Origin: Aspidiotus rigidus
Lineage: Eukaryota; Arthropoda; Insecta; Hemiptera; Diaspididae
DNA length: 64,000 bases
Assembly (NCBI GenBank): GCA_035079385.1
Contig: JAVHKY010000065.1
Span: forward strand, 930,001 to 994,000
Reading direction: 5' to 3'
Made by a program: the position numbers and the translations under genes. A model generated the notes under the pieces. The model was not told where the DNA came from, ran no database searches, and worked only from the letters and a program-made list of their open reading frames with translations. Below, piece by piece: positions 9,666 to 45,899 of this stretch. The stretch's first letter is position 1. Each line of letters begins with the position of its first letter.

Positions 9666-9801
9666 CTAAAACAAAAATTAATGATCAAGACAATCTCTCT
9701 CTTAACAATCAGCTTCACTCTAATAGATTTGAAGGGGACAGGATAGGCCTCTATTATGGATTTGAAAGGACACTAAATAAAAGTTTCTAATTTCACATTA
9801 C

Positions 9802-10804: not shown

Positions 10805-10809
10805 ATTTT

Positions 10810-13600: not shown

Positions 13601-13712
13601 TACGATAGTGAAGAAGAGCCCTATATTTGAAGAATATAGGTGAGAGTAATGCAAAGAGAGAATGTCTAGATAGGAAAAGGTCACAGACGGCTGGAGTGTC
13701 CGTCAGCCCCCT

Positions 13713-13848
13713 CTTAGCTTAGTTTCCGCGAGACAAAGTCCTTTGGAATGCAGCTCTCACCGCGTGCAGGTGCTAAGTAGGAGTTGAGGTTTGAATGATA
13801 AGTAATATGCAACACGTATACGACTTCATTCAAATCTCCTTGAGAGCC
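13713..13848 (-). ncRNA. HDV-like self-cleaving ribozyme, copy 1
   Basis: On the minus strand, from the predicted cleavage site (5' of G at 13848): P1 5' strand GGCUCUC; a J1/2 insert forming a hairpin (GAGAUUUGAAUG with CAUUCAAACCUC); P2 5' CUUAGC; P3 ACC/GGU closing L3 UGCACGC; P1 3' GAGAGCU directly abutting P3 and giving G1.U at the cleavage site; GC pairing with GC in L3 (P1.1); P4 UUCC/GGAA around GGAC/GUCU; J4/2 ACUAA with the candidate catalytic C at 13722 (C-N-R-A); then P2 3' GCUAAG. Order and crossing of helices match the nested double pseudoknot of the HDV-like class. The assignment is by hand folding and covariation. Cleavage is not shown. Confidence 0.85.
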
Positions 13849-14463
13849 AGGGACCCCACTCCCCCCACCCGCCGGGAAATTTTTAAATCTCGCCTCACTT
13901 TTCGCTTTAGTAATGTACATTTGAATTTCTTACTACTTCTAGTATACTGAAAAAGTTATACAAATAAAAACGGCTAATTTTGGCTATTGGTGGAAGAAGA
14001 AGATGAAAATTCGCTAATGACGGAATGTGTTTCCTTCGGATAATATTCTAACATCGCTAATAGAATTAGTGGTAATGAATTACTGATAATATCGGACCGA
14101 GCAAAGTGACGATTACCAAGAGTTGCTTATAAATAAATACATTGATATATAAAAATACAGGTGATTGTAGTTAACTACAAATAAGTACAAAATGACACAT
14201 CTCGGTAGATTATTACAAGAAATTTTTGCATTTGAAGGAGTTCAATAAATTATTATATGTCTTGTTACTAAGGGGTATACTAAAGAGGAGAGGGAGTATG
14301 ACAATGAGCTATCTTCAGCGCGGCAAGAAGACTTTACATCAACTGTGACACTTGAATAACATAATATCTCCTTGCAAACTTGCGAAATTTTTGATTTTCG
14401 ATTATGGCCGAAAAAAATATTGTTACTCTACCCTCCTCTCTAGTATCCTGATATTATTTAATT

Positions 14464-14709
14464 TTGGTTGAAAATCAATTTTTCCACTTGACTGATGAAA
14501 AAGTTGTACTCACTAATGTGTCACGCATGACTCATTTGACCTCGATGTCGACAAATTGCGAAGTTGTCTTTTCCCATTATTGGTTAAAATGTATGCATTT
14601 GATGTATCTTATTCCTGACCTCTGTTCAATTTTTTCTTCCGCGTCATGGATTAGTTCTTATGATCAAATCACAAATAAGAAGTCAAACATGACGCGAGGA
14701 AGAAAATGA
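14464..14709 (+). other. Repeated 81-codon frame, probably non-coding
   Basis: This frame is identical, codon for codon, to 18047-18292 in unit 3. Identity reflects recent duplication of the unit rather than selection: unit 2 lacks the segment and other units do not preserve the frame. It has no recognisable domain. Confidence 0.4.
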
Positions 14710-15226
14710 CTTCTTCATTCAAAACAATCCCATTTGTATACAAAATTATGAAAGAAATTAAAAAATACTACAGAACTACATTCACGTTCGAAATATCGAT
14801 CAACATTATTTTAGAACCTGTTTAAATTATCACTAGGAGAATGTTACATTAAGAAAGGTTTGTACAAACAGATCAAGCATACTCTTGAAGATTGTTGTGC
14901 ATTTTTCGGTATCGTTCAAATTTCCTCGTAGGTTTAAGAAAAGGTGTAGGCGATTAATCAGACACACCCATCACCTCTTCCTTACCTTGGAGGAAATGGA
15001 ATAAAATTGAGCCTTGAATGATTTATTCAGAAGTCGTACTTGAAGCAGAGTAACCCAATTTTCGTCTATAAACATACGCTAGGCTTACTGAAAATGTATC
15101 GAGCTACAACTACGCCTCCGGATTTCTGTCTTCTTGACGAATGTTTGCATCTTCATTTCTTAAAGGATGCTCGTACAACATGATTACTTACTATCTTTCT
15201 AATAAATATTTTCTTGAACTTTTTGG

Positions 15227-15283
15227 TAGGAACATGTAAGGTACTAATGAATCAGTAACACATTAATACCAGACATGTTCCTA
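15227..15283. ncRNA. Pre-miRNA-like hairpin, unit 1
   Basis: The outer stem TAGGAACATGT pairs perfectly with ACATGTTCCTA. An inner stem GGTACTAATG pairs with CATTAATACC with one C.A mismatch. The loop is about 11 nt. Length and shape (57 nt, near-continuous stem) fit a small pre-miRNA or other processed hairpin on either strand. The same structure occurs in four other units, one with different inner-stem bases but pairing kept. Confidence 0.55.
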
Positions 15284-15398
15284 CAAAAAATTCAGTGCTC
15301 AATATAGAAAGACACTTTGCATAAGAACTTCACTGAAATAAAAGCTCTTTTGGTTAAAAATGTGGAAAAGTTTAGAGTACTGGGAGAGTTTTCAAAAT

Positions 15399-15549
15399 CA
15401 GTATCGTAGCCATGAAATTACCGCAGAGGGTTTAAGAAAAAGTTGTATGCAATACATTAACCCTTTCTTTAATTTTGATAATATTTGAAGACAAATTTTC
15501 CAAGTTTGGCAGGAATTTCGAACCCCATATCTCCATGGCTACGTCTCTG
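15399..15549. mobile_element. hAT-type MITE, unit 1
   Basis: A short element whose ends derive from CAGTGGCGTAGCCA and its inverse, the terminal pattern common in non-autonomous hAT elements. The flanks resemble a decayed 8-bp target-site duplication of ATCAGAAT type. It lies at the same place in units 1-4 and 8, so it inserted before the array amplified. Confidence 0.6.
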
Positions 15550-15668
15550 ATCAGAATGAATTTAGGATCCGAAATGGTCACCGAAGGCTAGACACATGAG
15601 AGTAATGCGAAGAAACATACGCATGATAGGAAAAGGTCACAGACGGCTGGAGTGTCCGTCAGCCCCCT

Positions 15669-15806
15669 CTTAGCTTAGTTTCCGCGAGACAAAGTCCTTT
15701 GGAATGCAGCTCTCACCGCGTGCAGGTGCTAAGTAGGAGTTGAGGTTTGAATGATAAGTACAATATGTAACACGTATACCACTTCATTCAAATCTCCTTG
15801 AGAGCC
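15669..15806 (-). ncRNA. HDV-like self-cleaving ribozyme, copy 2
   Basis: Same core as copy 1: P1 GGCUCUC/GAGAGCU, P2 CUUAGC/GCUAAG, P3 ACC/GGU, P1.1, P4 and J4/2 ACUAA are all intact. Predicted cleavage lies just 5' of 15806. The candidate catalytic C is at 15678. The J1/2 hairpin loop is slightly longer than in copy 1. Confidence 0.85.
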
Positions 15807-16851
15807 AGGGACCCCACTCCCCCCACCCGCCGGGAAATTTTTAAATCTAGCTTCACTTTTCGCTTTGAATTTCTTACTACTTCTAGTATACTGAAAAATA
15901 TAGAAAAGTTATACAAATAAAAACGGCTAATTTTGGCTATTGGTGGAAGAAGAAGATGAAAATTCGCTAATGACGGAATGTGTTTCCTTCGGATAATATT
16001 CTAACATCGCTAATAGAATTAGTGGTAATGAATTACTGATAATATCGGACCGAGCAAAGTGACGATTACCAAAAGTTGCTTATAAATAAATACATTGATA
16101 TATAAAAATACAGGTGAATATAATTAACTACAAATACGAACAAAATGACACATCTCGGTAGATTATTACAAGAAATTTTTGTATTTGAAAGAGTTCAATA
16201 AACTATTATATGCCTTGTTACTTAGGGGTGTACTAAAGAGGGGAGGGAGTATGACAATGAGCTATCTTCAGCGCGGCAAGAAGATTTTACATCACAAATA
16301 AGAAGTCAAACATGACGCGAGGAAGAAACTGACTTCGTCATTCAAAACAATCCCATTTCTATACAAAATGATGAAAGAAATTAAAAAATACTACAGAACT
16401 GCATTCATGTTCGAAATATCTATCAACATTATTTTAGAACTTGTTAAATTATCACTAGGAAAATGTTACATTAAGAAAGGTTTGTACAAACAGATCAAGC
16501 ATACTCTTGAAGATTGTTGTCCATTTTTCGGTATCGTTCAAATTTCCTCGTAGGTTTAAGAAAAGGTGTAGGCGATTAATCAGACACACCCATCACCTCT
16601 TCTTCTTATCTTGGAGGAAATGGAATTAAATTGAGCCTTGAATGATTTATTGAGAAGTCGTACTTGAAGCAGTGTAACCCAATTTTCGTGTATAAACATA
16701 CGCTAGGCTTACTGAAGATGTATCGAGCTACAACTACGCCTCCGGATTTCTGTCTTCTTGACGAATGTTTGCATCTTCATTTCTTAAAGGATGCTCGTAC
16801 AACATGATTACTTGCTGCCTTTCTAATAAATATCATCTCGAACTTTTTGGC

Positions 16852-16907
16852 AGGAACATGTAAGGTCCTAATGAATCAGTAACACATTAGTACCAAAACA
16901 TGTTCCT
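16852..16907. ncRNA. Pre-miRNA-like hairpin, unit 2
   Basis: AGGAACATGT pairs with ACATGTTCCT. The inner stem GGTCCTAATG pairs with CATTAGTACC with one mismatch. The inner stem differs from unit 1 at two positions. Confidence 0.55.
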
Positions 16908-17023
16908 ACAAAAAATTCAATGCTCAACATAGAATGACAGTTTGCATAAGAACTTCACTGAAATAAATGCTCTTTTGGTTAAAAATGTGGAAAAGTTTGG
17001 AGTACTGGGAGAGCTTTCAAAAT

Positions 17024-17174
17024 CAGTGGCGTAGCCAAGGAATTACCCCAGAGGTTTTAAAAAAAAGTTGTATGCAATACATTAACCCGTTCTTTAATTT
17101 TGATAATATTTGAAGACAAATTTTTCAACTTTGGCAGGAATTTCGACCCCCATTTCCTCCTGGCTACGCCTCTG
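17024..17174. mobile_element. hAT-type MITE, unit 2
   Basis: The best-preserved ends among the array copies: CAGTGGCGTAGCCA at the left, and TGGCTACGCCTCTG at the right. Flanks TTCAAAAT and ATCAGAAT suggest a degraded 8-bp duplication. Confidence 0.65.
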
Positions 17175-17298
17175 ATCAGAATGAATTTAGGATCCGAAAT
17201 GGTCACCGAAGGCTAGACATATACATGAGAATTATGCGAAGAAAACATACGCGTGATTGGAAAAGGTCACAGACGGCTGGAGTGTCCGTCAGCCCCCT

Positions 17299-17436
17299 CT
17301 TAGCTTAGTTTCCGCGAGACAAAGTCCTTTGGAATGCAGCTCTCACCGCGTGCAGGTGCTAAGTAGGAGTTGAGGTTTGAATGATAAGTACAATATGTAA
17401 CACGTATACCACTTCATTCAAATCTCCTTGAGAGCC
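17299..17436 (-). ncRNA. HDV-like self-cleaving ribozyme, copy 3
   Basis: Core identical to copy 2, including a near-identical J1/2 insert. Predicted cleavage lies 5' of 17436. The candidate catalytic C is at 17308. The identity with copy 2 points to recent conversion or duplication of this segment. Confidence 0.85.
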
Positions 17437-18809
17437 AGGGACCCCACTCCCCCCACCCGCCGGGAAATTTTTAAATCTAGCTTCACTTTTCGCTTTGAAT
17501 TTCTTACTACTTCTAGTATACTGAAAAATATAGAAAAGTTATACAAATAAAAACGGCTAATTTTGGCTATTGGTGGAAGAAGAAGATGAAAATTCGCTAA
17601 TGACGGAATGTGTTTCCTTCGGATAATATTCTAACATCGCTAATAGAATTAGTGGTAATGAATTACTGATAATATCGGACCGAGCAAAGTGACGATTACC
17701 AAGAGTTGCTTATAAATAAATACATTGATATATAAAAATACAGGTGATTGTAGTTAACTACAAATAAGTACAAAATGACACATCTCGGTAGATTATTACA
17801 AGAAATTTTTGCATTTGAAGGAGTTCAATAAATTATTATATGTCTTGTTACTAAGGGGTATACTAAAGAGGAGAGGGAGTATGACAATGAGCTATCTTCA
17901 GCGCGGCAAGAAGACTTTACATCAACTGTGACACTTGAATAACATAATATCTCCTTGCAAACTTGCGAAATTTTTGATTTTCGATTATGGCCGAAAAAAA
18001 TATTGTTACTCTACCCTCCTCTCTAGTATCCTGATATTATTTAATTTTGGTTGAAAATCAATTTTTCCACTTGACTGATGAAAAAGTTGTACTCACTAAT
18101 GTGTCACGCATGACTCATTTGACCTCGATGTCGACAAATTGCGAAGTTGTCTTTTCCCATTATTGGTTAAAATGTATGCATTTGATGTATCTTATTCCTG
18201 ACCTCTGTTCAATTTTTTCTTCCGCGTCATGGATTAGTTCTTATGATCAAATCACAAATAAGAAGTCAAACATGACGCGAGGAAGAAAATGACTTCTTCA
18301 TTCAAAACAATCCCATTTGTATACAAAATTATGAAAGAAATTAAAAAATACTACAGAACTACATTCACGTTCGAAATATCGATCAACATTATTTTAGAAC
18401 CTGTTTAAATTATCACTAGGAGAATGTTACATTAAGAAAGGTTTGTACAAACAGATCAAGCATACTCTTGAAGATTGTTGTGCATTTTTCGGTATCGTTC
18501 AAATTTCCTCGTAGGTTTAAGAAAAGGTGTAGGCGATTAATCAGACACACCCATCACCTCTTCCTTACCTTGGAGGAAATGGAATAAAATTGAGCCTTGA
18601 ATGATTTATTCAGAAGTCGTACTTGAAGCAGAGTAACCCAATTTTCGTCTATAAACATACGCTAGGCTTACTGAAAATGTATCGAGCTACAACTACGCCT
18701 CCGGATTTCTGTCTTCTTGACGAATGTTTGCATCTTCATTTCTTAAAGGATGCTCGTACAACATGATTACTTACTATCTTTCTAATAAATATTTTCTTGA
18801 ACTTTTTGG

Positions 18810-18866
18810 TAGGAACATGTAAGGTACTAATGAATCAGTAACACATTAATACCAGACATGTTCCTA
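18810..18866. ncRNA. Pre-miRNA-like hairpin, unit 3
   Basis: Identical to the unit 1 hairpin (11-bp outer stem plus inner GGTACTAATG/CATTAATACC stem), as expected from the recent unit 1/unit 3 duplication. Confidence 0.55.
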
Positions 18867-18981
18867 CAAAAAATTCAGTGCTCAATATAGAAAGACACTT
18901 TGCATAAGAACTTCACTGAAATAAAAGCTCTTTTGGTTAAAAATGTGGAAAAGTTTAGAGTACTGGGAGAGTTTTCAAAAT

Positions 18982-19132
18982 CAGTATCGTAGCCATGAAA
19001 TTACCGCAGAGGGTTTAAGAAAAAGTTGTATGCAATACATTAACCCTTTCTTTAATTTTGATAATATTTGAAGACAAATTTTTCAAGTTTGGCAGGAATT
19101 TCGACCCCTATATCCTCCTGGCTACGCCTCTG
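18982..19132. mobile_element. hAT-type MITE, unit 3
   Basis: Same insertion as in units 1 and 2, with a mutated left end (CAGTATCGTAGCCA) as in unit 1 and a TGGCTACGCCTCTG-type right end. Confidence 0.6.
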
Positions 19133-19255
19133 ATCAGAATGAATTTAGGATCCGAAATGGTCATCAACGGATAGACATATACATGAGAGTAATGCAAAGA
19201 AACATACGTATGATAGGAAGAGGTCACAGACGGCTGGAGTGTCCGTCAGCCCCCT

Positions 19256-19388
19256 CTTAGCTTAGTTTCCGCGAGACAAAGTCCTTTGGAATGCAGCTCT
19301 CACCGCGTGCAGGTGCTAAGTAGGAGTTGAGGTTTGAATGATAAGTAATATGCAAGTATACCACTCCATTCAAATCTCCTTGAGAGCC
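19256..19388 (-). ncRNA. HDV-like self-cleaving ribozyme, copy 4
   Basis: P1, P2, P3, P1.1, P4 and J4/2 are as in copy 1. The J1/2 insert is shorter. Predicted cleavage lies 5' of 19388. The candidate catalytic C is at 19265. Confidence 0.85.
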
Positions 19389-19912
19389 AGGGACCCCCTT
19401 CCCACCACCGCCGGGAAATTTTTAAATCTAGCTTAATCTTTCTCACTTAGTTATGAACATTCAAATTTCTCATTTGTTGTTGATTACCAAACTTCTAGTT
19501 GTGAAAAATTTAGAGAAGTTGAATAAAAAAAAAAACAAAACTACTAAATCTATTGGTGGGAGAGGAAAGTGAAAATTCGCCATTAGTGGACAATGTTATC
19601 TTCGGATAATATCCTAATAACGCTAACGGGATTAGTTTTTCTTTTTATTTATTTATTTTACAAGCTTTGACTAGGGCTATTGGCGTGACAAAGGTTTATT
19701 CGAAAGACGGATAATACTATCCTATGGTTAAATGAGGGGGAAGATGTCGGATCGGTAAGATAGTAATAATAAGTTACAGATAATATCGTGCCGACCAAAG
19801 TGATGAGTACCATGAGTCGCCCGGAAATAAATACATTCATATAATAATTATATAGAAATACTAGTGAATAATAATTAAATATAAATGACTATAACATAAT
19901 ACATCTTATAGG

Positions 19913-19976
19913 TAGAAAGAAAGGAAATAGGCACTATGTACCATTTTATTCAAAGTGCCTATTTCCTTTCTTTCTA
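19913..19976. ncRNA. Perfect 23-bp stem hairpin
   Basis: TAGAAAGAAAGGAAATAGGC plus ACT (19913-19935) pairs without mismatch to 19954-19976 across an 18-nt loop. It occurs only in unit 4. It could be a tiny foldback insertion or a source of small RNA. Confidence 0.6.
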
Positions 19977-20882
19977 TATTATAGTGGAAACCACGAAAAA
20001 ACTCTCCTCATCAACTTAATAATACATCTTGGTAGATTATTACAAAAAAAATGTTGCATTTGAAAGATTTTAATAAATTATATTCCTGGTTTCTTTTGGG
20101 TACTAAAGAGGGGAGAGAGTATGGCAATGACATATCTTAAGCAGCATAATGATTTTACAATAAACAAACTGTTACACTTGCATTACATATCTCGTTGTGA
20201 ATTCGCGGAAGCTATGACTTGCGATTATGGCCGAAAAATATTGTCAAGTTTATGAATATAGTTTAAAAGTGTCATTGATGAATTCTTGCCATTTTCTTTC
20301 AGATAAGTCCATTTTGAACTGCTATTTCATGTACCTCATTTCTGACCTCCATTCAATTTTTTCTTCCGCGTCTTGAATTCCTTCTTATGATTAAATCACA
20401 AATAAGAAGTCAAACATGCGGTGAGGAAGAAACTGAATTCGTCATTTAAAAACAATCCCATCTCTATACAAAATTATGAATCACTAGGGAAAGTTACATT
20501 AAGAAAGGTTTGTACAAACAGATCAAGCATATTCTTGAAGATTGTTGTCCATTTTTCGTTATCGTTCAAATTTCCTCGTAGGTTTAAGAAAAGGTGTAGG
20601 CGATTAATCAGACACACCCATCACCTCTTCTTTACCTTGGAGGAAATGGAATAAAATTGAGCCTTGAATGATTTATTCAGAAGTCGTACTTGAAGCAGTG
20701 TGACCCAATTTTCTTCTATAAACATACGCTAGGCTTACTGAAAATGTATCGAGCTACAACTACGCCTCCGGATTTCTGTCTTCTTGACGAATGTTTGCAT
20801 CTTCATTTCTTAAAGGATGCTCGTACAACATGATTACTTGCTATCTTTCTAATACTGTAAATATTATCTCGAACTTTTTGGC

Positions 20883-20938
20883 AGGAACATGTAAGGTCCT
20901 AATAAATCAGTAACACATTAGTACCAAAACATGTTCCT
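20883..20938. ncRNA. Pre-miRNA-like hairpin, unit 4
   Basis: AGGAACATGT/ACATGTTCCT outer stem with GGTCCTAATA/CATTAGTACC inner stem. The inner stem is weaker than in unit 2 by one extra mismatch. Confidence 0.5.
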
Positions 20939-21054
20939 ACAAAAAATTCAATGCTGAACACAGAAAGACAGTTTGCATGAGAACTACACTGAAATAAAAG
21001 CTCTAGTGGTTAAAAATGTGGAAAAGTTTGGAGTACTGGGAGAGTTTTCAGAAT

Positions 21055-21186
21055 CAGTGCCGTAGCCATGAAATAAAAGTCTTATGCGATACATTAACCC
21101 TTTCTTTAATTTTGATAATATTTGAAGGCAAATTTTTCAACTTTCGCAGTAATTTCGACCCCCATATCTCCATGGCTACGCCACTG
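21055..21186. mobile_element. hAT-type MITE, unit 4
   Basis: Shortened copy of the shared insertion. Ends are CAGTGCCGTAGCCA and TGGCTACGCCACTG. The flanks TTCAGAAT and GTCAGACT keep six of eight positions of a target-site duplication. Confidence 0.6.
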
Positions 21187-21319
21187 GTCAGACTGAATGT
21201 AGGATCCGAGGATCCGAAATGGTCGGCTGGATATACACGTGAGAGTTATGTGTAATGAGAAGAGATCATGCGTACGATAGGAAAAGGTCACAGACGGCTG
21301 GAATGTCCGTCAGCCCCCT

Positions 21320-21455
21320 CTTAGCTTAGTTTCCGCGAGACAAAGTCCTTTGGAATGCAGCTCTCACCGCGTGCAGGTGCTAAGTAGGAGTTGAGGTTTG
21401 AATTGTAAGTGATATGCAAAGTATATACCACCCCATTCAAACCTCTTCGAGAGCC
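21320..21455 (-). ncRNA. HDV-like self-cleaving ribozyme, copy 5
   Basis: Core preserved. The base after the 7-bp P1 strand is G instead of A, outside P1 proper. The base before the predicted cleavage site is C instead of U. The J1/2 stem (GAGGUUU side on the plus strand) has changed but still pairs. The candidate catalytic C is at 21329. Confidence 0.83.
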
Positions 21456-23451
21456 GGGGACCCCACTTCCCTCCACCCGCCGGGAAATTTTCAAATCTAG
21501 CTTAATCTTTCTGTTCAGTAATGGACATTTGGATTTCTTACTTCCTCTTGATTAGAAGTTTTAATTTTTTTTCCTACGTCATAGCCAAAACCTGGACAAG
21601 TTATATACATAAAAACACAATGGCTGAATTCTGCTAGAAGAAAGTGAAAATTTGCTAATGGCGTAAACTAATGGTTGCAACAGTTCTGTCTTAGGATAAT
21701 GTCATAACAACGCTAAAAGGAATAATGGTAACAGGAGTAAATTACTAATGACATGAAATGAAGCGAAGTGAATGGTGCCAAGAGTTACCCATAAATAAAT
21801 ACATTAACATTTAAAAATAATGGTAAATATAATTAACGATAAGATACACACAGCATTATGGTACATCGCCATAGAACATGACGTATCTCATTGCAAATGC
21901 TTGGAAGCATTGATTTGCAATTATGCCGAAGAAATATTAATTTTCACGTATAAGAATCTTTTTGATGAGTCTATTTTGAACTCTATTGAAAACGCATATC
22001 AAAAATTATTGAATATTCCATAAGTACACGTTTTGATGAATAGATTCTTGTGCTAAATTGTTGTATTACCATACTCCACTCTCCTCTTTAGTATCCCTTT
22101 GTTTTCAAATCGTGGTCAAATTTTAAATATTTCACAGGATTGAAGAAAAGGCAATTTAGCAGTAATCTGCGCCAGTCATGGATCATCTGATCTTGGTCTT
22201 GAAGATAGTTGATCAGATTGCGATGTTCTCTTTCGCTCATTATCGGTTGAGATGTCGATGAATCCCATTTCTGACGTTCGTTCAACTTTTCGTTCACTCC
22301 ATGGATGCAACTATTTATTAAGAAAACACAAATAACATTGCAACCATGAAGTGAAGAAAAGACTGATTTTATCATTTAAAAACTATCCAATCCATACTAA
22401 ATCACAAAAAGAAAAATGTTTAATGAAATACCTACATTCACATTTGAATTATCAATCTAAACTTAATCATTACAAGGAAACTGACACAATAAAAAGCGTT
22501 TGTATAAAAAAGTCATTTTATGAAACAGAGTTGAAAGAAATACATAATATTTCATTTTAGTATTGGTCAAATTTCTTCATAGGCTTAAGAGGCTGTGTTC
22601 ACGATTAATCAGACACGAGAGACACAGAATCTTAGCCTATGACGAAATTCAATAAAATTAGGAGTACAATAATTCATTCGAAAGCCACGCTTAGAGAAGT
22701 CTGACTCACTTTTCTCATTAATGCTGTTGGTAACTTTGAATGGAGGAAGGGTATTACCTAATTCGGAAAACGTTTTCCCTTTACTCTGGGTCAAATTGCA
22801 TATGTTGAGTGCTGTAGGGAAATCCGACTATAATCCCTGGTGAATCTGTCCCCAAAAGATGCGCCATCACCCTAAACTGGTACTGAGTAAGAGTTTGAGG
22901 TAAATGATTTCTAAATGTATCTTTTCTGCCCGAGACTTGCTGACTATTGTAATATCCCTGGAGGCTCCGGAAATCTAATACTTCTACGAAAATTGTACGT
23001 TTTACTAGATGCGTCCGGAACTTACTTCAACCAGATTTCTTCCCTAGGCACACAGTTAGATACAGAGTTGCAAACAATTTTGTCTCAGCTATGTTGGTAG
23101 GTATTTCTTCAAACTGTATCTATATGCCCGCACAGTCGAAACCAACAGCTGACGAAGAATGATTAATTTTTTCAACATGAGCAATTAAGCGTGTGTTCTA
23201 CATTTAAAAATATGCTCGTGAAACATGGTACCAAAAATCAGATTTTACTGTTCGAAATCTTGAAAAATCTTTCTGAATAATTGAAACCGAAGCAACCCTC
23301 ATAGTAAACACATGCTAAATAAGAAATGATTCCCAAATGTATCGACTTTGCCTAAAACTTGCTATCTATTGTAACCTATTCAAAGACTCCTGAAGTCTCC
23401 TTCTAACGCTCGGATAATAGTACACTTCACAATTTGCCTCGAGAACTAACT

Positions 23452-23652
23452 TCAACCAGATTCATCCCATCGGCACTGAGTAAGATACACAGGTGCAAAC
23501 AAGTATATGTCTCTGCTACTTCGATAAATACCCGCCATATCTAAACAGACAGCTGAAATAGTATTATCAATCTCTTCCACACACGCGTAATTAGAGCTCA
23601 ATTTCAAAGCACTCCCTCTTTGTTTAGAGAATTTCAATCCATACCTACTCAT
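23452..23652 (-). other. Frame related to 25452-25652, function unknown
   Basis: A 66-codon frame shares about 46 alignable residues with 25452-25652, including QRGSALKLSSNYA, VEEI and LDMAGIYR. A third, decayed relative of the surrounding DNA lies near 22.9-23.1 kb. It could be an exon captured and amplified within the array, or a chance frame in a duplicated block. No domain is recognised and no convincing splice sites were found on both sides. Confidence 0.3.
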
Positions 23653-23807
23653 GAATTTTAATTCAGGTTCGGGAACAGGAAAATATCAAGCTTTTACTCT
23701 ACTTTTTGGATGAAATATGATTCAAGAATATGAGTGGGAGCAATACAAAGGAAACATGCGCGCGATAGGAAAAGGTCACAGACGGCTGGAATGTCCGTCA
23801 GCCCCCT

Positions 23808-23941
23808 CTTAGCTTAGTTTCCGCGAGACAAAGTCCTTTGGAATGCAGCTCTCACCGCGTGCAGGTGCTAAGTAGGAGTTGAGGTATGAATTGTAAGTGA
23901 TATGCAAAGTATACCACCCCACTCAAACCTCTTTGAGAGCC
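23808..23941 (-). ncRNA. HDV-like self-cleaving ribozyme, copy 6
   Basis: Core preserved with G1.U in P1 and J4/2 ACUAA. The candidate catalytic C is at 23817. Predicted cleavage lies 5' of 23941. The J1/2 stem has an extra mismatch (gaggtatgaa on the plus strand). Confidence 0.83.
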
Positions 23942-25451
23942 GGGGATCCCACTTCCCTCCACCCACCGGGAAATTTTTAAATCTAGCTCCATCTTTCTGT
24001 TCAGTATAATGAACATTTGGATTTCTTACTTGCTCTTGATTAGAAATTTTAATTTCTTTCCTACGTTGTAGTCAAAAATCTAGATAAGTTATATAAATAA
24101 AAACACGACGGCTGAATTCTGCTGTTGGCGGAAGAAGAAAGTGAATTGGTTGCAACAGTTTTGTCTTAGGATAATATCATAACAACGCTTAAAGGATTAA
24201 TGGTAACAGGAATAAATTACTAATGATATGAAATCAAGCTAAGTGAATGGTGCCAAGAGTTGCCCATAAATAAATATATTCACATTAAAAAATAATGGTG
24301 AATACAATTAACAATAAGATACCCATAGGATTATAACACATATCCATAGATCATTACAAGAAAATTTTGGCGTTTGAAACATTCTTGGTAGACATATTTC
24401 TATCCGATGAATCTTATTTCGGAGCTCCGTTCAATTTTTTCGTTCGCGTCATGGATACTGACACATATTATTAAATCACAAATATGTGTGTACCCATGAA
24501 GCTAAGACAAAATGATTTCGTCGTTTGAGAATAATCCAATCCATATCGAATCACCAAACAATGGCCAATATACTATACACTCATAATCTAGATATCAATT
24601 AACATTATTTTACAGTTTGTTAAATTATCACTAGGAAAATATTACAATTAAAAAAGGTTTAAAAAAAATCGATTAGGTGATCGCGTCATGTAACAGACCC
24701 TCAAAGAATGTTTACGTTTTTTCAGTACTGGTCAGATTTCTTCTTGGGCTTGAGATATGACAAATGACATTTAATCTCATATGTAAGTTGCCAAATCTCA
24801 GCCTTGGAAAAAACTGAATAGAAGTGAGCCCATAGATCAATTTATTCAGAAGCCATGCTTGAAGTAGTATGACTCGATATTCTGATGAATGTGGTTGGTG
24901 TTTTCCCATACATATTTTACGACCATTGTTCCAGCAGTCGATTTTCTGTTCCCATTGTCTCGATCTGGGTGCAACCAGTAGAAGATTATTACAATTGTCT
25001 GCGAATCCCGTATTGAATCACCCCAGCTTGCACCAAGGAAAAACAAAACAAAAATACGAATATTCTTATGGAACGAACAAAGGACGAATATAAGAATACA
25101 AATTCATTGAGACGTCTAGACCTCTCCCCACTTACTTCTAGCCACAAATTCAGAGGTATATTTCTGGCCTCCGAAAACGTTTTTCCTCGCGCATGGTCCA
25201 AGGGCATACCTTGAGAATTTTGTTTTTTTTTGACGAAATCTAGCTGAAGATATATCCTCCATATCTGCGCCCAACTTCTCGAGGAAATCCTCAAAGTAAG
25301 CATGCGATAAATAAGAGTTGAAGGTAAATGACCCCCCAAATGTATCACCTTCCCCTAAAACTTACGGTCTATTGTAACATCATTAAAGACTCTCAAAAGT
25401 CTCCTAGCCAGTACTCCGATATTTCTTCGCTTCTCAATTTGCCTCCAGAAC

Positions 25452-25652
25452 TCACTTCAACCAGACTCCTTCAATCGGCACCGAGATAGATTGATGCGAA
25501 GGAGTACGTCTCCAACTACCTCGGTAAATACCCGCCATGTCTAAACCAACAGCTAATCTAGTATTACCAATCTCTTCCACATACGCGTAATTAGAGCTCA
25601 ATTTCAAAGCACTCCCTCTTTGTTCAGGGAATTTCAATCCATACGTACTCAT
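25452..25652 (-). other. Frame related to 23452-23652, function unknown
   Basis: See 23452-23652. This copy differs mostly at amino-acid-changing sites over the shared part and diverges completely after AGIYRG, which argues against strong purifying selection. Confidence 0.3.
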
Positions 25653-25807
25653 GAATTTGAATTCAGGTTCAGGAACAGGAAAATATCAAGCTTTCACTCT
25701 ACTTTTTGGATGAAATCTGATTCAAGAATATGAGTGGGAACAATACAAAGGAAACATGCGCGCGATAGGAAAAGGTCACAGACGGCTGGAATGTCCGTCA
25801 GCCCCCT

Positions 25808-25939
25808 CTTAGCTTAGTTTCCGCGAGACAAAGTCCTTTGGAATGCAGCTCTCACCGCGTGCAGGTGCTAAGTAGGAGTTAAGGTTGATTAGAATCAGCC
25901 AAAAACTGGTTGTTTGCCAATCAGACCTCTTTGAGAGCC
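25808..25939 (-). ncRNA. HDV-like self-cleaving ribozyme, copy 7
   Basis: Core preserved; catalytic C candidate at 25817. The J1/2 insert is entirely different from copies 1-6 but still folds: AGGTTGATT against AATCAGACCT, and an inner CAGCCA/TGGTTG stem. Replacement of sequence with retention of a stem argues for a structural role. Confidence 0.85.
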
Positions 25940-25969
25940 GGGGAACCCACCCACCTCCCAGGGAATAAC

Positions 25970-27060
25970 ACTCTTTTGCCACTTTCCTTTGTTTTGGTGC
26001 ATCCATCGTCCTCTCGATACAAATTCTCGAATTATGAGCTCAACTAGTGTCAACGTATCACTTGTCTTTGTGTGTACAGGGGATGGACGACCTTTCTTCA
26101 ATTCAAGCACATTGATGGTACACTCTCGGCAGGAAAAAGCTTCCTCTTTCACTGAAATGATTGACAACACCCGCTGGACAGCTCTTGATTACAAAAACCT
26201 ACTCTTCAATCATGGGAGACATTCTAGAAATATCAAATACTCAGTAAACCCCTCGGAATTAATCAGGCGTCGCATACATTGGTCTTCTTTCATTGAAAAA
26301 TTGAAAACTTGGGACGAGAAGAAACGATCCTTACTCGGATGGCCACAGCGTCATTTTACCTATAGGAAACCTGCCAGTTTTGCTTCTTAACATGTACACA
26401 ACCCATACCTTTCACTCCTCTATGCCGAACCATATCTGAAGCTACTAAGTACTTTAAAAATTACATTTACACAATGTGTACATTACAGTATGCTATATGA
26501 TTGATATTACCGACAGAAAATATTTAAAAGAATAGTGTATCATTAATTATTTGTTATAATCGCCAAATCAATTACCTATTCTTACATGAAGGAAAAAACC
26601 ATTGTATGTTTTTATAAGATAATGAAATGCTTGATATTTCCACTTGATGATTAGCCACTTCTGAAAAGATGGATTTACCATAATTACATACGGTTATTCA
26701 CATCTTTCTAATGGATCTATCACACACTTGAAAGTTGCAAATAACCATATGAAACATGAATCATGTAACTTCCAAACGTTCTGATGAGGTATTGAATGTA
26801 GAGGTGAATACTATAATTTCCATGTATCTCTTTTTGAGAACATTTGGCGAGATATTATTAATTCGAGAAATAACTCGTGATCCTTAATTTAATTACAACT
26901 CTTCAACGAGAACGTATTCTAATTGTACAAACATGTTTTTCTATTCTCAGTTGGTGAATACTGCACATAATGTACTAACTATCAATTATCACGGTAGTGT
27001 CCATTCAATGGCTGAACAAGAATTGGATAACGTCGATTTCCACTTTTTCTCAAATTTTTT
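25970..27060. other. Unit-specific spacer without supported gene
   Basis: A 133-codon plus frame (25989-26390) and an opposing 91-codon frame (25895-26170) overlap on opposite strands. Neither has a recognisable domain or a conserved copy in another unit. The rest is AT-rich. Confidence 0.45.
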
Positions 27061-27063
27061 GAA

Positions 27064-27118
27064 AGGAACATGTAAGGCAGTGATAATATGTCACACATCA
27101 TTGCCGAAACATGTTCCT
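27064..27118. ncRNA. Pre-miRNA-like hairpin, unit 8
   Basis: AGGAACATGT/ACATGTTCCT outer stem is unchanged, while the inner stem is now GGCAGTGAT/ATCATTGCC (one G.U), so pairing is kept although the bases differ from units 1-4. This is the most informative copy for structure conservation. Confidence 0.6.
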
Positions 27119-27236
27119 ACAAAAAATTTAATACTCAACATTGTAAGACAGTTTGCATCAGTACTTCGCTGAAATAAGAGCTCTATAAGTTAACATTGTG
27201 GAAAATTGTGAGAAGTATTGGAGGAATTGTCGGAAT

Positions 27237-27383
27237 CAGTGACGTAGCCAGAAAATTTTTGTGGAAAGGTTTCAACAAAATTGTGTGCAATGCGATTACT
27301 TTACCCTTTTCTGTTATTTTGATGCTATTTTAAGGCATATTATTCAACTTACAATTGATTAAGGGTTTCAGGCTACGCCACTG
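27237..27383. mobile_element. hAT-type MITE, unit 8
   Basis: CAGTGACGTAGCCA left end and GGCTACGCCACTG right end, with flanks GTCGGAAT and GTAAGAAT. It sits directly downstream (plus strand) of the hairpin, as in units 1-4. Confidence 0.6.
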
Positions 27384-27443
27384 GTAAGAATTTGTGAAGG
27401 ATCAGGAATGGTCACAGACGGCTGGAGTGTCCGTCAGCCCCCT

Positions 27444-27575
27444 CTTAGCTCAGTTTCCGCTGGACAAATGTCCTTTGGAATGCAGCTCTCACCTCGTGCA
27501 GGTGCTAAGTAGGAGTTGAGCCTCATGGTCTCTGTCCAAAGGGGACAGAACGCCATGAAAACCTCATTGAGAGCC
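27444..27575 (-). ncRNA. HDV-like self-cleaving ribozyme, copy 8
   Basis: P1, P2 and P3 are intact; L3 ends in A instead of C. Inner P4 is GGAC/GUCC (fully Watson-Crick). J4/2 is ACUGA, still C-N-R-A, with the C at 27453. J1/2 is a new hairpin: CATGG/CCATG around TCTGTCC/GGGACAGA. Predicted cleavage lies 5' of 27575. Confidence 0.86.
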
Positions 27576-27959
27576 GGGGCCCACCCCCTCCCTGGACTGA
27601 AAATTGTACCACTAAATATGGAAACTGTATTGAAAAATTTTATTCATGTTGTCCAGAAGAATCCCAAAGATGAAATGAGAAACATCAATAATATTGTAGG
27701 AACCAAGATAAGGGTACAGACTACGGACTCCATTAGCTCCTTCCAACTAGTTTTTCCTCCCTTAACTTAGGCTTTTGTTTATTACGTTCGTTAGCCAAAA
27801 TTTTTATGGTTTCAATATTGATGGTACAAGACATTTCTTTTGAGTGAAGAGCAAGAACAGTGTGATCATTCTACTTTCTTTCGTCATTTTTATGCTGAGA
27901 GATTCTAATCGGAACAGGGAATGGAATAAACAACACCAGCTCTTTTTGTAAGGTGAGGG

Positions 27960-29930
27960 GTGCTCCTCCAACGCCTATAATTGAAAACTTTTTTGGTACA
28001 GTTTATATTATACTTAAGTATACATTTGAATATTCTAGTATTAGTAGCAATGATTGAATTTCAATTATTTCTCTTGGCTGAGAAAGTCTAGTCATAACTG
28101 AATATGCACGTATGAACTAGCCAATCTCAGCCTAGGAAATAATTGAGCTGGTTGCGGTCCAAGATTCCATTCCAACGCCTATAATTGAAAAAGTTTTTCA
28201 GTACAATTTATATAATATTATAATATATAAGTACGCATTTGGATGTTCTAATATAAGTAGCATTGATTGGATTTCAATTACTTCTCTTGGCTGAGAAAGT
28301 CTAGTCATAACTGAATATGCACGTATGAACTAGCCAATCTCAGCCTAGGAAATAATTGAGCTGGTTGCGGTCTAAGATTCCATTCCAACGCCTATAATTG
28401 AAAAAGTTTTTCAGTACAATTTATATAATATAATATATAAGTACGCATTTGGATGTTCTAATATATAAGTAGCATTGATTGGATTTCAATTACTTCTCTT
28501 GGCTGAGAAAGTCTAGTCATAACTGAATATGCACGTATGAACTAGCCAATCTCAGCCTAGGAAATAATTGAGCTGGTTGCGGTCCAAGATTCCATTCCAA
28601 CGCCTATAATTGAAAAAGTTTTTCAGTACAATTTATATAATATTATAATATATAAGTACGCATTTGGATGTTCTAATATAAGTAGCATTGATTGGATTTC
28701 AATTACTTCTCTTGGCTGAGAAAGTCTAGTCATAACTGAATATGCACGTATGAACTAGCCAATCTCAGCCTAGGAAATAATTGAGCTGGTTGCGGTCTAA
28801 GATTCTATTCCAACGCCTATAATTGAAAAAGTTTTTCAGTACAATTTATATAATATAATATATAAGTACGCATTTGGATGTTCTAATATATAAGTAGCAT
28901 TGATTGGATTTCAATTACTTCTCTTGGCTGAGAAAGTCTAGTCATAACTGAATATGCACGTATGAACTAGCCAATCTCAGCCTAGGAAATAATTGAGCTG
29001 GTTGCGGTCTAAGATTCCATTCCAACGCCTATAATTGAAAAAGTTTTTCAGTACAATTTATATAATATAATATATAAGTACGCATTTGGATGTTCTAATA
29101 TATAAGTAGCATTGATTGGATTTCAATTACTTCTCTTGGCTGAGAAAGTCTAGTCATAACTGAATATGCACGTATGAACTAGCCAATCTCAGCCTAGGAA
29201 ATAATTGAGCTGGTTGCGGTCCAAGATTCCATTCCAACGCCTATAATTGAAAAAGTTTTTCAGTACAATTTATATAATATTATAATATATAAGTACGCAT
29301 TTGGATGTTCTAATATAAGTAGCATTGATTGGATTTCAATTACTTCTCTTGGCTGAGAAAGTCTAGTCATAACTGAATATGCACGTATGAACTAGCCAAT
29401 CTCAGCCTAGGAAATAATTGAGCTGGTTGCGGTCTAAGATTCTATTCCAACGCCTATAATTGAAAAAGTTTTTCAGTACAATTTATATAATATAATATAT
29501 AAGTACGCATTTGGATGTTCTAATATATAAGTAGCATTGATTGGATTTCAATTACTTCTCTTGGCTGAGAAAGTCTAGTCATAACTGAATATGCACGTAT
29601 GAACTAGCCAATCTCAGCCTAGGAAATAATTGAGCTGGATGCGGTCCAAAATTCCATTCCATCGCCTGCCTATAATTAAAAAGGTTTTTCGGTACAATTT
29701 ATATAATATAATATATAAGTACATGTTTGGATGTTCTAGTACATATAAGTAGCATTGATTGAATTTCAATTATTTCAATTAATTCTCTTGGCTTGAGAAA
29801 GAGTAGGTCATAACTGAATATGAAAATATGAGCTACCCAATCTCAGCCTAGGAAAAAATTGAGCAAGTTGCGGTCAATTATTCCATTCCACAGCCTATAA
29901 TTTTAAAAAATATTTAGGTACAGTCTGTGG
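27960..29930. repeat. About 212-bp satellite, ten boundaries
   Basis: Monomers start near 27967, 28172, 28385, 28597, 28810, 29022, 29234, 29448, 29659 and 29888 (motif caacgcctataattgaaaaa). Central copies are nearly identical and outer ones are decayed, the usual satellite pattern. Two sub-types differ in a tataatatt insertion and recur in a higher-order order. Each monomer holds one stem-loop (first copy about 28076-28132): GGCTGAGA/TCTCAGCC, a 4x4 internal loop, then CTAGTCATA/TATGAACTAG. The block lies inside array unit 9. Confidence 0.9.
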
Positions 29931-30269
29931 GACATCCAAATATAAATAGCATTAATTGAATTCCAATTATTTCTCTTGGCTTGAGGAAGGGGAGTTCATG
30001 ATGGAATTTGCACCTACAAACTACCCAGGGAGTTACTTATTAGTTGTTACCGAATAGAAAAGTTGAATTACGTACAAAATATACATTTATGTGTACATAG
30101 GTACACGTGTGACAAGAACTAATGATGATTAAAAGTTTGATTTGAAAAAATCATATCGGAATTACAGGAGAGTCCAGCTAAAACCTTAAAATTAGTATCA
30201 ATAAGGAAAGAAGAAATAGACAGGGGATAGGAACTGGTCACAGACGGCTGGAATGTCCGTCAGCCCCCT

Positions 30270-30422
30270 CTTAGCTCAGTTTCCATTGGATGATATCCTT
30301 TGGAATGCAGTCCTCACCGCGTGCAGGTGCTAAGTAGGAGTTGAGGTTCATGGTAAGTGATACGCTGGTGTATCATATCTGCCTATGACTGGCAGTACCC
30401 CATTCAAACCTCCTTGAGGACC
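30270..30422 (-). ncRNA. HDV-like self-cleaving ribozyme, copy 9
   Basis: The most diverged copy and the best evidence. P1 is GGUCCUC/GAGGACU: two pairs are swapped relative to all other copies (C-G to U-A and U-A to C-G) and the terminal G.U is kept. Inner P4 is GGAU/AUCC. J4/2 is ACUGA with the C at 30279. P2, P3, L3 and P1.1 are unchanged. J1/2 forms different hairpins (GTGATAC/GTATCAT and CTGCC/GGCAG, plus strand). Predicted cleavage lies 5' of 30422. Confidence 0.88.
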
Positions 30423-30931: not shown

Positions 30932-31254
30932 CAGTGGTGGAAACCCGAAGCCAATGAACGGTTTAGTGGCAGCAGCCGGTTTTGAACGGCTTTTAAGTCA
31001 GTCGTGAGCCGTGCTTCAAAATGCGGGTAGCCAATGAAAAGCCAATGGAAAATAATGGAAGCAGCCAAAGCCATTTGAATGCATCTAACATGGTTAACCC
31101 CAAAAAGCAGCTGAAAGCTTATATCAAAATATGAAAAACTTCCTTCATGCCAGTGGAATGACAAAAAAGCCGTTGGCAAGCCGATCGAAAATTGGTCAAC
31201 GGCTACAAGCTGGAGCCAAAGTTTAAGCCGATGACAAACGGCTCTCCACCACTG
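30932..31254. mobile_element. hAT-type MITE with perfect target-site duplication
   Basis: Ends CAGTGGTGGA and TCCACCACTG are inverted repeats. The flanking ACTACAAT at 30924-30931 and 31255-31262 is a perfect 8-bp target-site duplication, diagnostic of hAT transposition. The 323-bp interior is rich in agcc/ggct motifs and has no transposase. A minus-strand frame across it is incidental. Confidence 0.9.
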
Positions 31255-31442
31255 ACTACAATAATAACTGTACTGATTTAGGCCTACATGTAAAATTATT
31301 TCTACATTTCTCAATGAATTACCCGGGTTTGCGATCACATTTTCTGTCTTCATTTTCTTCATTTCTCTGCTTCAATATCTCACTGGCGCACAAATTAACC
31401 CAGATGCTGAATGTTCAACGACAAAAGTTCACAAATTCAATG

Positions 31443-31514
31443 CATCTTCAGAAGTTCCAGGGACTAACTTATTTTTCAACATTAATAAGTTAGTCTAGGA
31501 ACTTTCAGCAGATG
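31443..31514. ncRNA. Pre-miRNA-like hairpin a
   Basis: AAGTTCC, GGGACTAACTTATT and their partners AATAAGTTAGTCT and GGAACTT give a stem of about 30 bp with a 10-nt loop. The inner stem reads GACTAA/TTAGTC. Confidence 0.55.
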
Positions 31515-31650
31515 TGTTGAATCATATCTTCCACAATTTGTATTCAGGATGCTCTTCATCTTCTTCATTTCTCTGCTTCAATATCTCACTGGCGCACAAA
31601 TTAACCCAGACGCTGAATGTTCAACGACAAAAGTTTCACAAATTCAATGA

Positions 31651-31721
31651 ATCTGCGAAAGTTCCAGAGAGTAATTTATTTTTCAACATTAATAAAGTTA
31701 CTCTCGGAACTTTCAGCAGAT
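31651..31721. ncRNA. Pre-miRNA-like hairpin b
   Basis: ATCTGCGAAAGTTCC pairs with GGAACTTTCAGCAGAT (one bulge). The inner stem is GAGAGTAA/TTACTCTC. Relative to hairpin a the pair C-G has become G-C on both arms. Confidence 0.6.
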
Positions 31722-31858
31722 GTGTTGAATCATATCTTCCACAATTTGTATTCAGGATGCTCTTCATCTTCTTCATTTCTCTGCTTCAATATCTCACTGG
31801 CGCACAAATTAACCCAGATGCTGAATGTTCAACGACCAAAGTTTCACAAATTCAATGA

Positions 31859-31930
31859 ATCTTGCGGAAGTTCCAGGGAGTAACTTATTTTTCAACATTA
31901 ATAAAGTTACTCTCGGAACTTTCAGCAGAT
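31859..31930. ncRNA. Pre-miRNA-like hairpin c
   Basis: Like hairpin b in its inner stem (GGGAGTAAC with GTTACTCTC), with a more mismatched base (ATCTTGCGGAAGTTCC). Confidence 0.55.
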
Positions 31931-32516
31931 GTGTTGAATCATATCTTCCACAATTTGTATTCAGGATGCTGATAAAATGATATCCGCGTAATGGAAAGCT
32001 CGAAGGCCTTAAACTGCGTAGAGTTTTGAAAGGACGTGTTCATGCACAATATAAGTAAACTTGTGTGTTAAATTATACCCTTCAAAATACATGAAACTGA
32101 AGAACTATTCCATATAAAAACTAGGAGAGGTATATAAGTGACTTATCAATACAACACATCGTAAATGTAAAGCAGCATATTTTTATACTATAGCTAACAA
32201 AATATTTTCCTTTCCAGGGGTGCCATGATCCCTCAAGTCCAATGAAGAAACCCCTCTCAAACTTTAATTTCTTATAGCTATAAATAAAAAATAAAAAAAT
32301 TATATCGGCTCTCCCTAAAAACGATTACGAAGAATTATCTTCATGAAAGTGGCCTCACGGCACCCCTGTTTTCACAAAATTTCTAGGAAGTAAATGAACA
32401 AATTATATTCAGTATAAGTAATAAGGACGGCTCAAAGGTTTTCTAATTTTAAAGTTATGTACAATGTAGAATATATCTATGAATTAAGTCAGATTGGTGT
32501 CAAATCACATTTCAAA

Positions 32517-32592
32517 AATTTTGGGAACGCAACGTCCAAGGTCCTGTATGACTTTAACAACAACGTAAAAGACCTCGTTGCGTTCCCAAATT
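32517..32592. ncRNA. Hairpin with 15-bp perfect base stem
   Basis: TTTGGGAACGCAACG (32520-32534) pairs exactly with 32576-32590, and AGGTC/GACCT extends the stem after a 4-nt asymmetric bulge. It occurs once in the window. It may be a processed hairpin or a relic of a small foldback element. Confidence 0.5.
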
Positions 32593-42336: not shown

Positions 42337-42477
42337 CTAAAAAAAAAAAAATAATAATCATGACGATCTCTCTCTTAAGAATAAACTTCACTCTAATAGG
42401 TTTGAAGGGAATAACAGGTTAGGCCTCTGTTGTGGGTTTAAGAAGACACCAAACAAAAGTTTCTAATTTCATATTAC

Positions 42478-45859: not shown

Positions 45860-45899
45860 ATTTTATGGATTTTGTTTCCTTCTGATTTGTCTGAAAATT

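Follow-up and report, generated by a model that had tools for sequence, protein, structure and literature searches.

Self-cleaving ribozymes resembling that of the hepatitis delta virus (HDV) are found at the 5' ends of R2 and other non-long-terminal-repeat (non-LTR) retrotransposons, where the HDV-like double pseudoknot is predicted to cut the element out of a longer co-transcript (PMC3774820). In drz-Agam-2-1 of mosquito, a helix inside the long J1/2 segment speeds cleavage (PMC4908430), and Pr77 of trypanosomatid retroposons, a region that contains a ribozyme, was reported to be a promoter whose RNA trims its 5' end (PMC4748587, PMC4035085). The intron 10 of mouse Sfmbt2 carries tens of microRNA (miRNA) precursors, produced by tandem duplication of units of about 2 kb over tens of kb (PMC3212979). 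Why HDV-like ribozymes persist in animal genomes outside retrotransposons is a standing question. Here we describe a 64,000-nucleotide stretch from the 441-Mb genome of the hemipteran insect Aspidiotus rigidus (contig JAVHKY010000065.1, abbreviated C65, positions 930001-994000; below, the window), which contains a tandem array of HDV-like ribozymes alternating with miRNA-like hairpins. We lean towards the view that the locus encodes a long non-coding RNA from which miRNA-like hairpins are derived, and that the HDV-like ribozymes divide this precursor into units.

Ribozyme fold in the window

Alignment and a pair table reveal the HDV-like fold at nine places on the minus strand of the window, with the strand order P1-P2-P3-P3'-P1'-P4-P2' of a nested double pseudoknot. 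Nine minus-strand HDV-like segments with P1, P2, P3, P1.1 and P4 had been proposed in the initial annotation, and this is confirmed by the alignment, the pair table and a structure descriptor. Cleavage is predicted directly 5' of G13848, 15806, 17436, 19388, 21455, 23941, 25939, 27575 and 30422. The ribozymes, all found by the descriptor, are listed with their scores against the Rfam model drz-agam-1 (RF01787), followed by two adjoining elements:

13710..13848, minus strand: HDV-like ribozyme r1, from G1 at 13848 to the end of P2'; 19.1 bits
15666..15806, minus strand: HDV-like ribozyme r2; 19.1 bits
17296..17436, minus strand: HDV-like ribozyme r3; 19.1 bits
19253..19388, minus strand: HDV-like ribozyme r4; 19.1 bits
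21317..21455, minus strand: HDV-like ribozyme r5; 19.1 bits
23805..23941, minus strand: HDV-like ribozyme r6; 19.8 bits
25805..25939, minus strand: HDV-like ribozyme r7; the sole copy without a drz-agam-1 match
27441..27575, minus strand: HDV-like ribozyme r8; 24.8 bits
30267..30422, minus strand: HDV-like ribozyme r9, with the compensatory P1 GGTCCTC/GAGGACT; 19.5 bits
13679..13709, minus strand: almost invariant element adjoining P2' on its 3' side, example of r1 (alignment)
13849..13880, minus strand: G-rich tract ending in TCCC(C/T), adjoining the cleavage site on its 5' side, example of r1 (base counts)

P1 comprises 7 bp and starts with G.U in all nine copies; its strands are GGCTCTC/GAGAGCT in eight of them and GGTCCTC/GAGGACT in the copy at 30422, where both sides are changed in two P1 pairs and one P4 pair. 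P2 (CTTAGC/GCTAAG) has 6 bp, extended by 3 bp (CCT/AGG) past a bulged A, and the 3-bp P3 (ACC/GGT) abuts P1 directly. P1.1 may form between GC of the L3 loop and the GC following P1, and the long J1/2 has an internal hairpin of its own. Every copy has a two-part P4 and a C-N-R-A sequence in J4/2, reading C-U-(A/G)-A, which bears out the earlier claim that the candidate catalytic C is kept in all nine. The length of the repeat unit in the array varies from 1,630 to 2,847 bp.

Nine occurrences of the shared core were counted in the window, against zero in 100 shuffles. The full-topology descriptor, which was drawn up after inspection of the sequence, recovered exactly these nine copies on the minus strand and none on the plus strand, and had no match in 1,600 shuffles of the window (100 + 1,500); the descriptor search suggested in the initial annotation thus came out in favour of the fold. 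The nine copies are paralogues and therefore count as one event rather than nine.

A cluster of 81 ribozymes

With C65:730001-930000 added to the window, 264 kb were examined, and the array proved to be one end of a 226-kb cluster (C65:734033-960334). This region contains 81 ribozyme cores (at most five substitutions) on the minus strand and none on the plus strand. When the genome was searched at the DNA level for one of the ribozyme regions, 81 first-look candidates emerged, presumably the same places as the 81 cores; 40 of them were scored, and all 40 lie on the minus strand of C65 (739594-953987). A covariance model built from nine of the copies, which match it by construction, gave 81 matches scoring 94-105 bits and a further four of 14 bits each (E 1). 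Four pattern scans of viral contigs and one of prokaryote genome contigs found no ribozyme of this kind, which carries little weight since these collections are without insects.

The full descriptor is passed by 73 of the 81 cores, the other eight being mismatched in P3 (four) or in the outer P4 (four). The 7-bp P1 is fully paired in all 81, with one sequence in 73 and a compensatory version in eight; the catalytic C is likewise present in all of them, and C-N-R-A in 78. In genomic HDV, L3 has U at position 1, C at position 5 and G at position 6. The same bases occupy these positions in 81/81 cores, L3 reading UGCACG(C/U/A) throughout. J1/2 occurs in 31 distinct sequences, each of which is foldable with a stem close to the ends of the segment, where drz-Agam-2-1 has its cleavage-enhancing helix (PMC4908430).

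In 13 chosen copies P1 is 100% paired and has two double-changed pairs. Over the whole ribozyme, 96.2% of cells are paired in these copies against 95.2% in shuffles (reached by 0/500), and against 32-49% when the alignment is slid; three pairs are double-changed against 0.6 in shuffles (1/500), and further pair types are no more frequent than in shuffles (484/500).

The cluster is composed of eight blocks of two alternating kinds with 13, 7, 12, 7, 11, 7, 15 and 9 ribozymes and a period of about 53-61 kb. The whole locus is segmentally duplicated several times, the blocks being near-identical across tens of kb in places.

Coding content and genomic distribution

The array contains three stop-to-stop open reading frames (ORFs) of at least 100 aa, the longest of 151 aa, against a mean of 2.4 in 1,500 shuffles. 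In the window, 38 of 53 ORF pieces of at least 90 aa were scanned with Pfam: nine long ones gave weak matches and the 29 others none, and a single match reached its cut-off, within a repetitive ORF of 1147 aa. No tRNA was found in the window by ARAGORN. The description of the units in the initial annotation as non-coding and lacking reverse transcriptase is thus upheld by the absence of an ORF excess and by the confinement of the scored genome matches to one stretch. An origin from the 5' end of a long interspersed nuclear element (LINE) or R2 was rejected as an explanation, since ORFs are not in excess in the array and none of the 40 matches scored among the 81 candidates is a dispersed copy.

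Outside the array, a segmental duplication (about 1-11 kb and 34-46 kb) carries two related minus-strand ORFs, one of 344 aa at 9773-10807 and one of 1147 aa at 42419-45862, in which a 180-bp repeat recurs about 16 times. Neither contains a convincing Pfam domain, and no relatives of the 344-aa ORF were found in a protein search that gave 1,327 candidates, of which none was scored.

Two further explanations are touched by these data. An integrated deltavirus-like agent in tandem would fit the ribozyme type and the length of some units, near 1.7 kb, but would be expected to have ribozymes on both strands and a delta-antigen ORF; it was rejected as having next to no probability, given that ribozymes in the 264 kb are on the minus strand only and that the array, whose longest ORF has 151 aa, shows no ORF excess. 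Retrozyme-like circular RNAs might be formed if neighbouring ribozymes excised a unit and a host ligase closed it, giving circles of 1.6-2.8 kb that would be functional or mobile. Tandem ribozymes of the same orientation with matching ends are what circularisation needs, and tandem hammerheads in animal genomes do yield circles, but those are not HDV-like, and animal retrozyme repeats are of about 150-300 bp against about 2 kb here (PMC7761336). Dispersed copies were absent among the 40 scored genome matches. Conserved hairpins, described below, are not known as a feature of retrozymes, which also counts against circles, and we regard this explanation as very unlikely.

Hairpins between the ribozymes

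By one folding criterion, the array contains 34 minus-strand hairpins, a few of which overlap ribozymes; in 20 shuffles the number was 1-8, with a mean of 3.8. The same criterion gave nine minus-strand hairpins in the 13.6 kb to the left of the array and 12 in the 31 kb to its right; the 2.5 kb beside the array (30.5-33 kb) contain five, a density equal to that of the array. The array hairpins are single, 80-90 nt long, with about 35 bp, and are unusually stable, as expected of miRNA precursors; six that were tested had z from -5.5 to -8.8. Clustering placed 165 hairpins of the 264 kb into families A (88 copies), B (39), C (26), F (8) and L (4). The hairpins of the array, found by folding and clustering, are as follows, with further evidence in brackets:

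14626..14709, minus strand: pri-miRNA-like hairpin, family B
14915..15001, minus strand: pri-miRNA-like hairpin, family A
15215..15294, minus strand: pri-miRNA-like hairpin, family C (z -8.8; genome search)
16537..16625, minus strand: pri-miRNA-like hairpin, family A
16838..16920, minus strand: pri-miRNA-like hairpin, family C
18209..18292, minus strand: pri-miRNA-like hairpin, family B
18498..18584, minus strand: pri-miRNA-like hairpin, family A
18798..18877, minus strand: pri-miRNA-like hairpin, family C
19895..19983, minus strand: hairpin of minor family a, three copies in the cluster (very stable, the fold of 19895-19986 having about -37 to -40 kcal/mol whichever strand is folded, without clear strand preference)
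20351..20438, minus strand: pri-miRNA-like hairpin, family B
20565..20651, minus strand: pri-miRNA-like hairpin, family A
20869..20951, minus strand: pri-miRNA-like hairpin, family C (z -6.1)
22282..22366, minus strand: pri-miRNA-like hairpin, family B (z -6.9)
22567..22652, minus strand: pri-miRNA-like hairpin, family A (z -6.2; compensatory-change alignment)
24428..24520, minus strand: pri-miRNA-like hairpin, family B
24732..24817, minus strand: pri-miRNA-like hairpin, family A
26678..26759, minus strand: pri-miRNA-like hairpin, family F (z -5.5)
27050..27131, minus strand: pri-miRNA-like hairpin, family C
28061..29862, minus strand: nine tandem family-A hairpins in a repeat of about 212 bp (z -7.2), starting at 28061, 28274, 28486, 28699, 28911, 29123, 29336, 29548 and 29775 (compensatory-change alignment)

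The best match to a known Rfam miRNA family was that of the tandem hairpins to mir-279, with 31.2 bits where the cut-off is 56. The 3' arm of these hairpins holds UGACUAGA, the start of miR-279; the resemblance was set aside as a likely coincidence. Outside the array, at 31168-32599, just upstream of the last ribozyme, there are long hairpins at 31435, 31642 and 31850 (a tandem repeat of about 208 bp) and at 32510; they are more stable on the plus strand, and similar ones lie upstream of four of the eight blocks.

All 165 family hairpins are located between the first and the last ribozyme of a block. The 73 intervals between neighbouring ribozymes span 427-3,632 bp (median 1,850; 55 of them 1.6-2.9 kb), and 70 contain from one to nine family hairpins. 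Along the direction of transcription the hairpins are ordered AB in 26 intervals, CAB in 11, CF in 8, CA in 7, A in 4, AAAA in 4, LA in 4, AAA in 2 and B in 2, and two further intervals have five and nine A, respectively; the order C-A-B is broken in no interval. A genome search with family C found 26 minus-strand places, all within the cluster, and 11 plus-strand rows that represent the same places as palindromes.

Concerning the strand, the eight blocks (139,751 bp) contain 215 minus-strand and 136 plus-strand hairpins, and the remaining 124,249 bp of the 264 kb contain 90 and 44, respectively. Block hairpins of families A, B, C, F and L found on the minus strand are more stable on that strand in 71 of 77 distinct sequences; this was rejected as evidence of the strand, for the same bias towards the own strand exists outside the blocks (minus-found hairpins stabler on minus in 47/53, plus-found stabler on plus in 25/28). 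Plus-found hairpins inside the blocks, in contrast, are stabler on plus in only 15 of 63, which favours RNA from the minus strand.

Conservation of the units

Units u1 and u8, the most different of the array, were compared in steps of 50 nt starting at the cleavage site; identity is 70, 88, 82 and 78% in the first four steps, beyond which it drops to about the level of unrelated sequences. Units u1 and u7 have the ribozyme and the family-C hairpin region in common. The ribozyme thus survives in units that have otherwise diverged beyond alignment.

This pattern bears on the possibility that the array is a dead or selfish repeat, in which the remains of a ribozyme-bearing element were spread by unequal crossing-over and segmental duplication and the core was kept alike by gene conversion. 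Recent duplication is certain, as the near-identity of the blocks shows, and HDV-like ribozymes are typically located at the 5' ends of non-LTR retrotransposons (PMC3774820). Conversion, however, would have to end at the edges of the ribozyme and yet permit changes in P1, P4, J1/2 and the hairpin stems with pairing intact, and neither an ORF excess in the array nor dispersed copies among the scored matches were found. Such an origin therefore seems unlikely, if slightly less so than circles.

Conservation continues for about 30 nt beyond P2', where a near-invariant element follows; 78 of the 81 cores retain it, a number of them slightly altered. Upstream of all nine cleavage sites in the window is a G-rich tract in which 11-16 of 27 nt are G. 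The background mean is 5.2, and 2.6% of 27-mers have at least 11; the tract is not rare by itself, as the minus strand of the window has 41 G-rich clusters. Both features extend past the ribozyme proper and might indicate that each unit is a non-coding RNA gene of its own, the conserved 180 bp or so being a 5' promoter module whose RNA trims its own 5' end, and the hairpins being local miRNAs or incidental. Ribozymes that double as promoters have a precedent (PMC4748587, PMC4035085). Single genes, however, would not require that the hairpins be confined to the ribozyme-bounded stretch at its downstream end, where no hairpin of the families is found past the last ribozyme, r1; we consider this explanation rather unlikely, though it deserves more weight than a dead repeat.

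Evolution of the hairpins

Family A is represented by 34 distinct copies, 19 of which were aligned together and nine separately, six being outside both alignments. In the 19 copies, 94.9% of cells are paired against 82.5% in shuffles (0/500 reach this), and 67 cells are double-changed against 20.8 in shuffles (0/500) and 5-23 when the alignment is slid; further pair types are ordinary (492/500). In the nine further copies, 13 double-changed cells compare with 4.9 in shuffles and seven double-changed pairs with 3.0 (0/500 in both cases). Family C gives some support for compensated arms, four of 41 pairs being double-changed in the five window copies.

Divergence of the presumed arms, the basal stem and the apex amounts to 35.5, 15.0 and 18.7% in the 19 copies of family A, 28.5, 24.0 and 17.6% in family B, 16.6, 7.5 and 26.5% in the nine copies of family A, and 13.5, 13.4 and 21.7% in family C. 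By these plain percentages, the arms change faster than stem and apex in the 19 copies and weakly so in family B, and do not in the nine copies or in family C. Family C appears to behave like an ordinary conserved miRNA.

A proposed ribozyme-cut precursor of small RNAs

The sequence directly supports the ribozyme fold, its covariation, its survival in diverged units, the alternation with hairpins on one strand and the compensation in family A; transcription, self-cleavage, the production of small RNAs and a benefit of cutting are what we infer. In the reading that we favour, the locus would yield one or more long non-coding transcripts from the minus strand, and the HDV-like ribozymes would fold on the emerging RNA and cut it just 5' of GG(C/U)(U/C)CUC. 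HDV ribozymes leave a 5'-OH and a 2',3'-cyclic phosphate; here, the cyclic phosphate would be on the upstream piece and the 5'-OH on the downstream one. As the hairpins lie between the ribozymes, the transcript would fall into units (1.6-2.8 kb in the window), each beginning with a folded ribozyme, after which the grouped hairpins would follow one another as C, A, B. That these pieces would be miRNA precursors is suggested by the shape, number, order and covariation of the hairpins, which might then be matured to small RNAs by the usual Drosha/Dicer route. The benefit might consist in separate units and in 5'-OH ends, which decay enzymes dependent on a 5' phosphate would not attack readily.

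Several observations weigh against this reading. No ribozyme in the window matched Rfam at gathering thresholds. The check by covariance model that the initial annotation had proposed stood in part: a relaxed search placed drz-agam-1 at eight of nine sites and on the correct strand, with every score (19.1-24.8 bits) below the gathering score of 37. The best match has E 0.0074 (401 bases searched), and the model alignment misses the true P1 strand, which precedes the long J1/2. With E values up to 10 allowed, drz-agam-1 also matches 11 of 14 prokaryote control genomes, and such matches alone therefore prove little; the cluster is absent among the 47 drz-agam-1 matches listed genome-wide, for which 56 of 28,067 candidates were scored. 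A score below gathering bars membership in the Rfam family drz-agam-1, not in the HDV-like structural class. Among the 13 chosen copies, P2 is invariant and P3 mostly so, without compensatory change, and both are thus uninformative on structure. One P3 pair is broken in four copies, and in three of these J4/2 also reads CTTA. Since many copies are recent segmental duplicates, the 81 are not 81 independent observations.

Of the hairpins, none matched an Rfam miRNA family at gathering in the window. The 11 double-changed pairs in the 19 copies of family A are ordinary in comparison with shuffles (65/500 reach that number). RNAalifold gave no clear consensus hairpin for family B (13 of 20 distinct copies), and the five window copies of this family gave a broken-up consensus structure; single copies fold well. 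Three intervals, each of 427 bp, are free of hairpins.

The ribozyme pairs 427 bp apart are located at C65 803713/804140, 856624/857051 and 914286/914713; in each pair, the second ribozyme reads ACA in P3 and CTTA in J4/2, which gives it the look of a copy in decay.

A stronger version of the precursor, which we regard as rather unlikely, is a dedicated ribozyme-driven small-RNA factory, in which more than 150 miRNA-like hairpins reside on precursors that the 81 HDV-like ribozymes release and perhaps also close into circles. In the largest family the presumed mature arms change at about twice the rate of basal stem and apex with pairing kept, as if many different small RNAs were diversified against a moving target in the insect or its host plant.

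Other observations in the genome

A dispersed repeat of 59 nt that resembles a compact HDV-like ribozyme was noticed at L029 1501-1559 (plus strand), with 44 equal-scoring places on many contigs, four of which were inspected (L029-L032). It has P1 GGCCAGC/GCTGGCC, P2 CGGTTCCCT/AGGGAACCG, P3 ACC/GGT, L3 TTCACGC, CACTGAG ahead of P2' and almost no P4, and gave 24.3 bits with drz-agam-1, under the cut-off. Its flanks are conserved on both sides, and adjoining ORFs of L029 contain NKSQGQT and QTNGLDCGV, which we take to be Helitron helicase and C48-protease motifs. A Helitron-borne HDV-like ribozyme, if true, would be of interest.

On contigs C70, C87, C89 and C97, pairs of full-length COX1 matches lie 13.38 kb apart, probably reflecting a mitochondrial genome of 13.4 kb assembled as tandem copies. 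The 4 kb of it that were read have 87% A+T, with COX1 head to head with a gene taken for ND4; partial, broken copies of COX1 on other contigs were taken for nuclear copies. Of 120 protein matches listed for COX1, the closest that bear a species name are those of Didesmococcus koreanus, Coccus hesperidum, Ceroplastes japonicus and Aclerda takahashii (67-68%), all four of them scale insects, against 59% at most for other named insects; COX1 thus most likely places the genome with the scale insects.

Comparison with known systems

By their structure, the ribozymes can be added to the HDV-like class as new members. Their combination with miRNA-like hairpins was not found in searches of an open-access library that is without most subscription papers; as far as found, the locus is a new arrangement. 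The initial annotation had likewise not recognised it as described, and nothing found in these searches, which cannot prove absence, contradicts this. No other part of the non-coding units is as conserved here as the ribozyme, and a host role in cutting a polycistronic precursor would be directly testable; if true, it would provide a protein-free way to form RNA ends in a miRNA-type transcript.

As in R2 and other non-LTR retrotransposons, a unit starts on its 5' side with a double pseudoknot of HDV-like type (PMC3774820), but the array is without a reverse transcriptase ORF and occupies one locus rather than many insertions. With drz-Agam (RF01787) the ribozyme shares the fold, the strand order, P3 ACC/GGU and a similar L3, and with drz-Agam-2-1 the helix within a long J1/2 (PMC4908430); it differs in having 81 copies at one locus, alternating with hairpins, and in its score below gathering. 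Tandem self-cleaving ribozymes in non-coding genomic repeats are also known as the tandem hammerheads, or retrozymes, of animals (PMC7761336), whereas here the ribozymes are HDV-like, the units measure about 2 kb instead of 150-300 bp, and families of hairpins lie in between. The growth of the hairpins by tandem duplications of about 2 kb resembles the Sfmbt2 cluster (PMC3212979); the abstract of that report is silent on ribozymes, whereas in A. rigidus a ribozyme bounds nearly every group of the putative miRNA precursors.

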